From Chloroflexota bacterium (GTDB lineage Bacteria; Chloroflexota; Anaerolineae; Caldilineales; Caldilineaceae): 6,396 bases of DNA. The stretch is from positions 1 through 6,396 of the forward strand of contig QEUW01000496.1 of assembly GCA_003577005.1 (NCBI GenBank), read 5' to 3'. The position numbers and the translations under genes were made by a program. Shown piece after piece: positions 1,666 through 4,878 of the stretch. The notes beneath the pieces were generated by a model that was given only the letters and a program-made list of their open reading frames with translations, had not been told where the DNA came from and made no database searches. How positions within the stretch are numbered: the stretch's first letter is position 1; each line of letters begins with the position of its first letter.

Positions 1666-2961
1666 CTACACCTGTACACGGGGTGCGGCCGCCAGGTGAC
1701 CACTCTGGACAAAATATGCGAGATAGGCGCGAATGTGCTCGCTCGTCAGCGGCGGACAGTGAATGCTGCTGCCGGCAAGACCAGCAAGCGTGTTCCGGGC
1801 GTCGAACTGGGGGAGGTGTCCCTGTTCGAACAGGTCGGGCAGCGTCTGCGGCTCAGCCGTGGCATGTCCCTTGGCCAGGATGGGGAGCAGCAGGGCCAGC
1901 GCGTTGTCCTGGGGCCTGGTCACGCCGGTCTTGAGCCGGGTCTGCCACTCCTTGAGCGGCATTCTCTCCAGTGGATAGCCGAACGATTCGATCCACTCAA
2001 ACAATTGGCTGAAAGCGAGCGGGTGCGGGTTTACCAGATGAAAGACATTACCTTGCCCGGTGGACCGTTGCGCCAAATGGACGATGGCTTTGCCGACATA
2101 GTTCACCGGAGCCAGGGAGACTGAATTCTCCAGGACCGGCCAGGCGCCAAGCTGGATACAGCCCTTGATCGCCCGGCAGAGAAAGTCATCGGGATTGTCC
2201 CAGATGCCGGTCTCGCTGTCCCCGATCAGCACGCCGGGCCGGTAGATAAAAGCGGGCAGCCCGCGTGCGCGCGCCTGGGCAATGATCTTTTCGGCCACCC
2301 ACTTGCTTTGAAAATAGCCCAACAGCAGCCGGTTGCCGTCACCCAGATCATCGGTCTCGTAGCAGACCCGGCCATTGGCATGTTGGCGAGGCTCGAAGAC
2401 AAAGACGGTTGAGACATAGTGGAGCGGCTTGCATTTGTGTTGGAGGGCCAGCCGGATGATCTCCTGCGTGCCCGTCACATTCGCCGCTTTGAGGGCGCGG
2501 TACGATTGCAGAAAATTGACCACTGCCCCATTGTGGTAGATCGCATCGATCTCTTCAGCGAGCTGGTCAAACGTTTGGGACGAGAGCCCCAGGAGCGGCT
2601 GGGCAAGATTCCCTACGACAGGGACGATCCGTTCACGATACGAATCATTCCAGAGGGCATTGGTAACCAGCTTGCTTTGCACGCGGTTCAGGGCTGTTTC
2701 CGGGTCGGCGCCGCGCACCAGACAGTAGACCGTCGCCTCTGTCTTCTGGAGCAATTCGGCAAGCAAAAATACCCCCAGAAACCCGGTCGCGCCGGTCAGG
2801 AAGACCGAACGGGCGGTCGCCGTCTCGCCACAAGGTCCTTGCATCGCGCTGGCGAAGTCGAGCGTGGGGTCGAGCACGGCTTCATGCTGAAGGTCAACCC
2901 CAAGCCGTGCCTGCCCTGTTTGCAGCGGCTGTTTTTTTCTCACTGGATGCTGTGTCGTCAC
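1666..2961 (-). CDS. Stand-alone thioester reductase / fatty acyl reductase (extended SDR)
   Basis: The 431-residue protein is an NAD(P)H-dependent reductase of the thioester-reductase (NRPS R-domain, Lys2/CAR-type) family, which releases acyl thioesters as aldehydes or alcohols. It shows the dinucleotide motif GATGFLG (57-63), the LVRG strand end (81-84), the HNGAVVN loop (143-149), the catalytic serine/threonine in VSTVFVF (183-189), the catalytic YFQSK (Y216, K220) and RPGVLIGDSETG (241-252). The C-terminal block, with FDARNT and CPPLTSEHI, is complete. Residues 22-34 (VDLQHEAVLDPTL) match the linker that joins such domains to a carrier protein, yet no adenylation or carrier domain precedes it: the frame is closed by TGA at 2995-2997, so the GTG at 2959-2961 with AGGAG ten bases upstream is the start. 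It lies 120 bp downstream of the AGPS gene on the same strand. I infer reduction of a fatty acyl-ACP or acyl-CoA to the alcohol that AGPS uses. The alternative is a remnant or partner of a nonribosomal peptide or polyketide system. Confidence 0.88.
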   Translation of the reverse strand: MTTQHPVRKKQPLQTGQARLGVDLQHEAVLDPTLDFASAMQGPCGETATARSVFLTGATGFLGVFLLAELLQKTEATVYCLVRGADPETALNRVQSKLVTNALWNDSYRERIVPVVGNLAQPLLGLSSQTFDQLAEEIDAIYHNGAVVNFLQSYRALKAANVTGTQEIIRLALQHKCKPLHYVSTVFVFEPRQHANGRVCYETDDLGDGNRLLLGYFQSKWVAEKIIAQARARGLPAFIYRPGVLIGDSETGIWDNPDDFLCRAIKGCIQLGAWPVLENSVSLAPVNYVGKAIVHLAQRSTGQGNVFHLVNPHPLAFSQLFEWIESFGYPLERMPLKEWQTRLKTGVTRPQDNALALLLPILAKGHATAEPQTLPDLFEQGHLPQFDARNTLAGLAGSSIHCPPLTSEHIRAYLAYFVQSGHLAAAPRVQV

Positions 2962-2971
2962 AAAACATGCA

Positions 2972-2976
2972 CTCCT
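2972..2976 (-). promoter_or_regulatory. Ribosome binding site fixing the GTG start of the reductase
   Basis: On the minus strand AGGAG sits ten bases before the GTG at 2961. An ATG in between (minus strand, seven bases upstream of the GTG) is out of frame and opens only a short frame of about two dozen codons, so the GTG is preferred. The in-frame stop at 2995-2997 excludes any longer N-terminus. Confidence 0.6.
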
Positions 2977-3014
2977 GATCGACTTTTGCAGGATTCAAAC
3001 CCGCAGCGGATAGC

Positions 3015-3034
3015 GAAAAGTCGCCGCAGCGACT
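3015..3034 (-). terminator. Possible weak intrinsic terminator after the AGPS gene
   Basis: Read on the minus strand, a six-base stem AGTCGC / GCGACT closes a TGCG loop and is followed by TTTTCG, about 50 bases after the AGPS stop. The stem is short and the T run is only about four, so it may just attenuate transcription into the reductase. Confidence 0.3.
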
Positions 3035-3081
3035 CATAGAGAAACCAGACCGGTGTCGCACAGATTACAGAGGAAGCATCC

Positions 3082-4878
3082 TCAGGGTCGATTGGAGGGC
3101 GGAACCGCATCTGGCGGTGGCTCCTCCTCTTCTGTGTGGTCTGTGAAGATGTTGTTGCGTATGCCAAAAATGTTCTGTGGGTCCAGCGCTTGTTTGGTCT
3201 GTCTCAGCAGTTCGATGCTCGTTGGCGAGAGGATCTGGGTCAGAAATGCCTGGCGAATCTTTCCTACCCCATGATGATGTGAAATAGAACCGCCGGCGGC
3301 CATGATCGTCTCACGGAGCGAATGCTCGATCTCATGCAGCACGGCGTCGGGCCGCTCAACCTCTTTGGCATAAAAGCCGTAGGTAAAGTAGATACAGACA
3401 CCTGTGTGGTAGCACTGCGTGATCCGGTAGGAGATGTACGGTTTGCCTGGCAACTGGTAGTTCTTGTGCTGCTCCTCTACCTGTTGCGTCACAGCAGCAC
3501 AGACGTCCTCTATCTTGCTCCAGGGTACAGTCGTCTCAAACGTTTCACCGATGATGTGGTATTGGAGCAGAAAGTCACGGATATAAGCGATGGCAAAGGT
3601 AAGCATGTAGCCGCGCTTGCCGTGGCCTTCACCGGCGGCCAGCCCACCATGTTTTTTGGCCAGTGCATAGATACCTTTGGCCTGGTGCGCTACTTCGGCT
3701 TTGGTGCCCTCCATCACAATCGTCGCCGCCGCCAGGCGGTAGGGGTCAAAGCCTTTGACCCGCAGCAGGTAGAATTTCTCGACCCGGCGGACCAATGATT
3801 TCAGAAAACTGGGGCGAGGGCGCAAGGCGCTGCCAAAGCGAAATTGAAAATTGTCCACCAGGCGCACGCTCGCCGGGGTAAGCCCTGCCCGCGTTAGTTC
3901 GTACAAGAATTGAACCCCCGCTTTGAAATCGGGGAAGACGATGGACCCATAGCGTTTGGTTTCGGGCAGGCGATGGACGCGGATGATCGCCTTGGTGATC
4001 AGCCCGAGATTGCCTTCGTTGCCAAAAAGCAGCTTGTTGGGTTGCATCCCCATCGAAATGCGCGGCATTGGCATAGCCTGTTCGAGGATCCCTTTGGGCG
4101 TCACCAGGTTTACTGATTCGACAATGTCTTCGATATTGCCGTAGCGGTTCTTTTTCATCCCGCTGGCATTGGTGGCGATCCACCCGCCGAGCGTCGAGAG
4201 TTCGACGCTATCGGGTTCATGACCACAGAGCAAGCCTTCTTTGGCAAGCTGCCGTTCCAATTCGCTGCCGGTGATACCGGCCTGGACACAGGCGCGCAAA
4301 TTTTCCTTATCGATCCATTCAATCCGATTCATGCGCCGCATATCCACCGAGACGATCATCCGCCGTTCGTGGGGGGGTAATTTGAGCGCGCTGCTGACAT
4401 TGGTTCCCCCGCCGTAAGGCACCAGGCAAACGTTGTGTTCCTTGGCCAGTTCTACCAGCCGCACTGCATCCGCTTCGGATTCGCAAAAGAAAACGAGATC
4501 CACCGTGCGTTCGAGCCGGCCATAGAGCACCCGATAGACCTCGTCGGCTGTGGTCTGCCCATGGCTATGAGTGAGCCGCTGTTGTGGATCAAAGGTGTAT
4601 TGGGTTGATCCAAAATTCTCTTGTAGGGCCTGGTAGAACGGTTCGTTGATGACTGGTTCATCGATCGGCTTCTCGGCACATTCGGCCTTTACATCTTGCG
4701 GATCAATACTGACGCCCAGCATCGATTCGACAAAATGAAAAAACTCGGGCATGACTGTGCCTGACAACTCATAGCGCTCCCCCGTCACCCGGACAGTGCG
4801 GTCGGGCTGGAGCACCAGAGCGGTGTCTTTGAATCCCCACTTATGACTGTGTACAATGTTCTGCTTGTCTGAAGTCAT
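3082..4878 (-). CDS. agps: Alkyldihydroxyacetonephosphate synthase (AGPS), ether-lipid enzyme
   Basis: The 598-residue FAD enzyme would exchange the acyl chain of acyl-DHAP for a fatty alcohol, creating the ether bond of alkyl glycerolipids (EC 2.5.1.26). It aligns by eye along the whole mature length of animal AGPS, not just the shared FAD_binding_4 fold of lactate/glycolate oxidases. Visible landmarks are KWGF (13-16), GERYELSG (33-40), the FAD pyrophosphate loop PYGGGTNVS (154-162), GITGSELERQL (201-211), GHEPDSVELSTLGGW (219-233), SGMKKNRYGNIEDIV (239-253), ASVRLVDN (336-343), KRGYMLTFAIAYIRD (421-435) and the histidine loop SHHHGVGK (533-540). R339 corresponds to the arginine whose loss in human AGPS causes rhizomelic chondrodysplasia (R419). 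The family normally ends near NIFGxRN; here an extra acidic, proline-rich tail runs from 580 to 598. The start ATG has GAGGG only three bases upstream. It is the first gene of a pair with the reductase. The acyl-DHAP-forming acyltransferase is not in the window. Confidence 0.9.
   Translation of the reverse strand: MTSDKQNIVHSHKWGFKDTALVLQPDRTVRVTGERYELSGTVMPEFFHFVESMLGVSIDPQDVKAECAEKPIDEPVINEPFYQALQENFGSTQYTFDPQQRLTHSHGQTTADEVYRVLYGRLERTVDLVFFCESEADAVRLVELAKEHNVCLVPYGGGTNVSSALKLPPHERRMIVSVDMRRMNRIEWIDKENLRACVQAGITGSELERQLAKEGLLCGHEPDSVELSTLGGWIATNASGMKKNRYGNIEDIVESVNLVTPKGILEQAMPMPRISMGMQPNKLLFGNEGNLGLITKAIIRVHRLPETKRYGSIVFPDFKAGVQFLYELTRAGLTPASVRLVDNFQFRFGSALRPRPSFLKSLVRRVEKFYLLRVKGFDPYRLAAATIVMEGTKAEVAHQAKGIYALAKKHGGLAAGEGHGKRGYMLTFAIAYIRDFLLQYHIIGETFETTVPWSKIEDVCAAVTQQVEEQHKNYQLPGKPYISYRITQCYHTGVCIYFTYGFYAKEVERPDAVLHEIEHSLRETIMAAGGSISHHHGVGKIRQAFLTQILSPTSIELLRQTKQALDPQNIFGIRNNIFTDHTEEEEPPPDAVPPSNRP

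Follow-up and report, generated by a model that had tools for sequence, protein, structure and literature searches.

In Myxococcus xanthus, the gene for alkyldihydroxyacetonephosphate synthase (AGPS) adjoins that for a fatty acyl reductase (FAR). This reductase resembles FAR1 and forms a fusion with an acyltransferase; disruption of the AGPS homologue lowers ether lipids slightly (PMC9131029). Myxobacteria also have ElbD, a multidomain protein with ligase, acyl carrier protein (ACP) and reductase parts, which is needed for most ether lipid. Its FAR1-like domain and an acyltransferase share one chain (PMC9131029). FcrA, a fatty acyl-CoA reductase resembling HMG-CoA reductase, forms alcohol from fatty acyl-CoA in vitro. 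In Promineifilum its gene is near that of AGPS, and its discoverers suggested that the two are linked there (PMC11948995). Homologues of ElbD, Ger and AGPS have served as ether lipid markers in a metagenome survey (PMC11868695). Here, we describe a 6396-base stretch of DNA (the window) from a Chloroflexota bacterium (contig QEUW01000496.1), in which an AGPS homologue is followed by a stand-alone thioester reductase (TR), or R-domain.

The window differs from each described system. Its reductase is a single R-domain protein without the Sterile domain, AGPS is a separate neighbour, and no acyltransferase accompanies them. FcrA makes a fatty alcohol, as we propose for the window TR, but belongs to another protein family (PF00368). 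In MxaA the R-domain is the terminal part of a polyketide synthase–non-ribosomal peptide synthetase (PKS–NRPS), whereas the window TR is free-standing beside AGPS. The MxaA R-domain reportedly carries out reduction to primary alcohols. Carboxylic acid reductases (CARs) follow a ligase plus R-domain logic, as do sister proteins of the window TR described below. CARs also carry a carrier domain.

A preliminary description of this DNA, which noted that an AGPS homologue contributes to ether lipids in M. xanthus, knew of no account of this exact pairing. Myxococcus is known to have AGPS next to a fatty acyl reductase (PMC9131029). We found no report of a TR beside AGPS in the open-access literature, which is weak evidence of absence. 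What is new is the type of reductase and its history, not the idea of the pairing.

An AGPS homologue beside a stand-alone R-domain

The pair is listed in Table 1. Its order, strand and spacing had been given correctly, and both genes are complete with the landmarks claimed for them. In AGPS these are PYGGGTNVS (154), GHEPDS (219), ASVRL (336) and SHHHGVGK (533); in TR they are GATGFLG (57) and YFQSK (216).

Table 1. The AGPS–TR gene pair of the window.
Feature	Position	Strand	Description
AGPS homologue	3082..4878	minus	598 aa, ATG start; PF01565 and PF02913, match to solved AGPS
Stand-alone TR (R-domain)	1666..2961	minus	431 aa, GTG start; TIGR01746, PF07993 without PF03015
Intergenic gap AGPS–TR	2962..3081	minus	120 bp; GTCGC-TGCG-GCGAC-TTTT hairpin, no detectable fatty acyl-AMP ligase relic

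The AGPS homologue contains both FAD domains of the family, FAD_binding_4 (130.9 bits) and FAD-oxidase_C (146 bits). Its best match is a solved AGPS over near-full length, the guinea-pig enzyme 4bby (residues 5–575; 538.8 bits, E 1.6e-160). The structure 2uuu, titled alkyldihydroxyacetonephosphate synthase, scores 311.9 bits, and the next proteins after the AGPS structures are flavin dehydrogenases, with at most 82.9 bits. The SHHH and GHEPDS motifs, the Arg of SVRL and the Tyr of CIYF are all present; the R and Y positions altered in the 4bc7 and 4bca sequences are wild type. We infer that this AGPS forms the ether bond from acyl-dihydroxyacetone phosphate (acyl-DHAP) and a fatty alcohol.

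The reductase scores 366.7 bits against the thioester reductase model TIGR01746 (cut-off 213.35). By sequence, its best solved relative is the R-domain of MxaA (E 2.2e-95). The closest fold to an AlphaFold2 model (mean pLDDT 87.5) is the same R-domain (4u7w, 4w4t; 40% identity, TMt 0.92, TMq 0.83–0.85), with the FAR structure 7eoz far behind (TMt 0.54–0.57). The Tyr-x3-Lys pair, Tyr216 and Lys220, is kept in 57/57 alignment rows. Thus, with the curated cut-off passed, the Tyr-x3-Lys motif and the R-domain fold, the protein is classed as a thioester reductase. FAR1/FarA enzymes are distinguished by the PF03015 Sterile domain, which is absent from the window TR although PF07993 is present; PF03015 was found in reductases at three other AGPS loci (L046, L080 and L076, the last below the curated cut-off). 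Nor is the protein a CAR, being an R-domain only, with no fused adenylation or carrier domains and 145.6 bits against NF041592 (cut-off 1300). It lacks PF00368, and no FcrA-type domain was found in the 7 window proteins scanned. By sequence and predicted fold, then, the window TR is an R-domain of MxaA type, not a FAR. R-domains can reduce their substrates to alcohol (PMC10168641; PMC13303079), and we propose that the window TR is a putative reductase of fatty acyl-thioesters to fatty alcohols.

An argument for four-electron reduction from an Asp-to-Gly change was considered and dropped. In both the window TR and MxaA, a Gly stands where SrCAR has D998 (a residue number counted from the alignment). 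Asp occupies this column in 0/57 aligned TRs, and the alignment is shaky there.

Recurrence of the pair and history of the reductase

Our survey of AGPS loci covered the best 80 of 223 stretches encoding a relative, from named genomes. One locus, L001, from a Chloroflexi metagenome-assembled genome (MAG), has AGPS then TR in the order and strand seen in the window. Identity to the window proteins is 73% for AGPS and 57–59% for TR. The L001 neighbours (a tRNA synthetase, a FabI-like reductase ~7 kb off, a KdpD-like kinase, a permease, and cNMP-binding and ParA-like proteins) are unlike the window flanks. The two loci group together in both trees, within a clade of 11 rows for AGPS (SH-aLRT 100) and one of 13 rows for TR (100/100). 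The TR of the pair is the sole strong PF07993 protein among the matches listed for the L001 genome (1.6e-73, the next being 7.5e-21).

Longest-contig sizes of protein clusters point in the same direction. For both window clusters, AGPS and TR, this contig is 9370 bases long. The TR representative on it and the window TR disagree at a single internal residue, so it may be a different contig from the window's. Three more pairs of AGPS and TR clusters have equal-sized longest contigs: 8186 (P0125, P0002), 111359 (P0133, P0006) and 40191 bases (P0127, P0243). This suggests three further AGPS–TR pairs.

We also searched for AGPS in the order (46 genomes) and class (396 genomes) of the L001 genome, and for TR in its phylum (400), its class (373) and the class of another genome, G002 (158). 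AGPS at ≥50% identity was found in 18 of the 396 genomes of the class, one being a fragment. Among 39 TR loci from Chloroflexota-side genomes, with flanks of ~1.5 kb at most, AGPS was beside TR in only two, both being the L001 gene. Hence, TR and AGPS are not often neighbours by chance.

Relatives of the window TR carry all or part of a fatty acyl-AMP ligase (FAAL). In P0004, which is 57% identical to the window TR, the C-terminal part of a FAAL lies ahead of TR. P0242–P0245 are full FAAL–TR fusions from the same 100/100 clade; P0243 is the TR partner on the 40191-base contig. The precomputed domains of P0242–P0245 include PF00501, PF23024 and PF07993. No carrier domain (PF00550) is listed, in which they differ from CARs and from cyanobacterial fusions of ~1100 aa in the same listing, which have PF00550.

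The L001 intergenic stretch of 190 bp (AGPS stop ending at 11743, TR ATG at 11934) holds traces of such a ligase. Positions 11755–11826 encode a FAAL start, matching P0242 at 19/24 residues (E 9.4e-7), with a score of 97 against a best of 54 in 1000 dinucleotide-preserving shuffles. Positions 11851–11892 encode a FAAL motif (11/14 residues), scoring 51 against a maximum of 43 in 1000 shuffles. By these matches, the L001 gap contains the relic of a FAAL. Hence, AGPS was once followed, 11 nt on, by a FAAL–TR gene from which most of the FAAL has been lost. An assembly error in the MAG could mimic such a loss in L001, but seven further members of the TR clade, the window included, are likewise free-standing TRs (412–438 aa). 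Searched with the FAAL portions of P0242 and P0243, the window gap yielded no match at E≤1, so the loss in this lineage is read from the tree.

Ancestrally, AGPS was probably paired with a fatty acid reductase resembling a CAR. FAALs activate fatty acids, and the ancestral substrate was therefore probably a fatty acid. Tentatively, we picture an ancestral pathway of two proteins, AGPS and a FAAL–TR that had no carrier domain of its own, which led from free fatty acids to alkyl-DHAP. The ligase may then have been lost in the window lineage, whose TR would now draw acyl-ACP straight from fatty acid synthesis. If true, ether lipid formation would be tied to chain synthesis and not to the pool of acyl-CoA. 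At least three enzymes, FAR, FcrA and the R-domain TR, would then be interchangeable as suppliers of the alcohol for ether lipids in bacteria.

Reductases beside AGPS in other bacteria

The 80 AGPS loci were scanned for TR, FAR and FcrA-like genes over 10 kb to either side, or over less at the many loci with shorter contigs. A reductase was found near AGPS in 34 of the 80: FcrA-like in 22 (one, in L014, a fragment at a contig end), lying upstream of AGPS, FAR in 7 and TR in 5. The other 46 gave no match, and 14 of these are <9 kb in all. None of the 34 reductases is more than 4 kb from AGPS (the farthest is at 3785), and 32 are on the same strand. The place beside AGPS is thus filled by three families (Table 2), which offers a rule, open to testing, by which producers of ether lipids might be recognized. 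The pattern suggests that different bacteria fill the alcohol-supply step with different, partly unrelated reductases.

Table 2. Reductase genes found near AGPS, by phylum (number of loci).
Phylum	TR	FAR	FcrA-like	None
Fidelibacterota (Neomarinimicrobiota)		1	18	1
Cyanobacteriota	4			2
Chloroflexota	1		1 (L014, perhaps mislabelled)	15
Latescibacterota		3		6
Gemmatimonadota		2		8
Actinomycetota		1		2
Pseudomonadota			2	1
Acidobacteriota				6
Planctomycetota				1
No phylum given			1 (L010, Promineifilum)	4

The five TR loci comprise L001 and four from cyanobacteria. In the cyanobacterial locus L015, a tight run encodes a FAAL-ACAD-ACP-TR protein, a PF01553 acyltransferase, AGPS and a short-chain dehydrogenase/reductase (SDR). 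In L021 the run is ACP, TR, an acyltransferase (by similarity), AGPS and SDR. Concrete cyanobacterial gene sets can be named in Planktothrix PCC 9631, Nostoc LEGE 07299 and Dulcicalothrix PCC 7102. The cyanobacterial AGPS-linked TRs fall outside the window TR clade and their AGPS outside the window AGPS clade. Hence, the linkage does not appear to stem from a single inheritance, and it seems to have arisen at least twice. This suggests that R-domains, whose best-known task is the release of peptides and polyketides, came to be used next to AGPS on at least two occasions. A phylum-wide search around the Planktothrix genome found AGPS at E≤1e-150 in 6/386 genomes, 4 of these 6 having a FAR-like gene directly after AGPS.

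FcrA accounts for part of the picture in Chloroflexota. A PF00368 search of 24 Chloroflexota-side AGPS genomes gave FcrA-type proteins in 10 (730–1142 bits), a 108-bit fragment in G014 and nothing in 13. In two genomes (G010 and G096) FcrA is on the contig and strand of AGPS, 2.9 and ~11.6 kb away. The L001 genome has a single PF00368 gene, which is not of FcrA type. Judged from these matches, AGPS in Chloroflexota seems to be served by FcrA in some genomes, by TR in the window and L001 lineage, and by other sources elsewhere.

Most FcrA loci (19 of 22) hold, besides FcrA and AGPS, a PF01553-like acyltransferase and an SDR. Three FcrA-like proteins tested score 284–341 bits against an HMG-CoA reductase cut-off of 441.8. 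In 18 of the 20 Fidelibacterota loci, all four genes form one run (L006, L013, L029, L032, L033, L034, L036, L037, L041–L044, L049, L050, L055, L065, L070 and L071). This run looks like a full alkyl-lipid operon with a reductase derived from HMG-CoA reductase. L014, from a MAG labelled Anaerolineae, has the same run and an AGPS almost identical to that of L013 from Neomarinimicrobiota; its contig is probably mislabelled or mis-binned.

A conserved protein of 646–685 aa lies between FAR and AGPS in five loci (L046:7839–9779 and L080:6000–8057, with kin in L051, L059 and L066). The L046 and L080 proteins had no Pfam match at the usual cut-off, and a provisional GNPAT label for the 646-aa protein was withdrawn for this reason. 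At E≤1 the only hint was PF01553, in L080 (E 0.2), and the L046 protein matched nothing in NCBIfam or the PDB. We regard this protein as a candidate DHAP acyltransferase of a novel type.

Proposed function and its alternatives

We consider it likely, from the gene identities and their neighbourhoods, that the pair acts in the synthesis of alkyl ether lipids, one enzyme supplying the alcohol and the other forming the ether bond. Using 2 NADPH, TR would reduce a fatty acyl thioester, most likely acyl-ACP and possibly acyl-CoA, first to the aldehyde and then to the fatty alcohol. AGPS would then convert acyl-DHAP and this alcohol to alkyl-DHAP, releasing a fatty acid. We infer the substrate, the cofactor, the four-electron reduction, the transfer of the product and the final lipid.

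The preliminary description took the pair for a two-gene equivalent of FAR1 plus AGPS. An R-domain in the place of FAR is well supported, by recurrence in L001, by the four cyanobacterial TR loci and by FAR and FcrA-like genes in a like place. The words "two-gene" are too complete. The animal pathway needs a DHAP acyltransferase and an alkyl-DHAP reductase (PMC9131029), which the preliminary description had proposed to look for. Neither a PF01553 acyltransferase nor an SDR was found among the 7 proteins scanned in the window; its AGPS thus has a reductase of an acyl-to-alcohol family beside it but lacks the rest of the gene run. In the L001 genome, PF01553 gave three matches, one of them clear, and SDR matches (best 88.2 bits) were too numerous and weak to assign an alkyl-DHAP reductase.

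These gaps weigh against the proposed role, as do the following observations. Adjacency, which the preliminary description had suggested as a check, recurs in L001, but in Chloroflexota ALTERNATIVES TR is beside AGPS in 1/17 loci and missing from the other 16. Eight of the 13 TR clade rows have no longest-contig size in common with the 120 listed AGPS clusters. Three closely related AGPS clusters whose contigs are long, P0122 (18730), P0123 (26596) and P0129 (23712), have no counterpart among the 120 rows listed for either TR search. In two of the five TR loci, L026 and L075, both cyanobacterial, TR is on the strand opposite AGPS, so that the case for an operon is weaker there. The hairpin with a short T run stands between AGPS and TR in the window (fold z −1.1); it was not called by a terminator scan, and promoter and terminator scans gave nothing exceeding shuffles. 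A search of the L001 genome for FAAL gave no strong match (best 63.5 bits). Finally, on C10-ACP, TRs of NRPS/PKS type were weaker than those of CAR type by a factor of ten or more (PMC13303079).

One alternative, which we judge unlikely, is that the reductase is a detached PKS/NRPS release domain, acting on a carrier-bound natural product, and that its place beside AGPS is incidental. Its closest solved relative is indeed the myxalamid R-domain, and of 17 TR matches in 15/400 Chloroflexota genomes, 9 lie in open frames of 1115–3250 aa. Conversely, no PKS/NRPS domain was found in the 7 window proteins or in 10 larger L001 neighbours scanned, the sister proteins are FAAL fusions, and TR recurs beside AGPS amid unlike flanks.

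It is also improbable that the reductase mainly serves another product, such as wax esters, with AGPS merely sharing the pool. The FcrA of Ca. Promineifilum breve has been suggested to act in both wax ester and ether lipid formation (PMC11948995). However, the same window proteins and L001 neighbours contain no wax synthase domain (whole genomes were not searched for it), and the tight neighbourhood with AGPS, with the relic FAAL start 12 nt past the AGPS stop in L001, speaks against this reading. That the AGPS homologue is some other flavin oxidoreductase, and the pair unrelated to ether lipids, is very improbable: the fold family is common to glycolate and lactate dehydrogenases, which also match, and we know of no assay of a bacterial AGPS from the window clade, but the solved AGPS outscores the dehydrogenases by 538.8 to at most 82.9 bits, the residues mutated in 4bc7 and 4bca are wild type, and many relatives' AGPS loci have acyltransferase and SDR neighbours.

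The flanks of the pair yielded no lipid-metabolism genes among the 7 window proteins scanned. YtkA-like and MauG-like genes lie on the upstream side, and a PotB/PotC-like transporter, on the plus strand, lies on the downstream side. Its PotC-like permease (889–1605) is not matched by Pfam BPD_transp_1 and matches its family in two split stretches. A middle piece, probably the ATPase-contacting loop, seems to be missing in frame.

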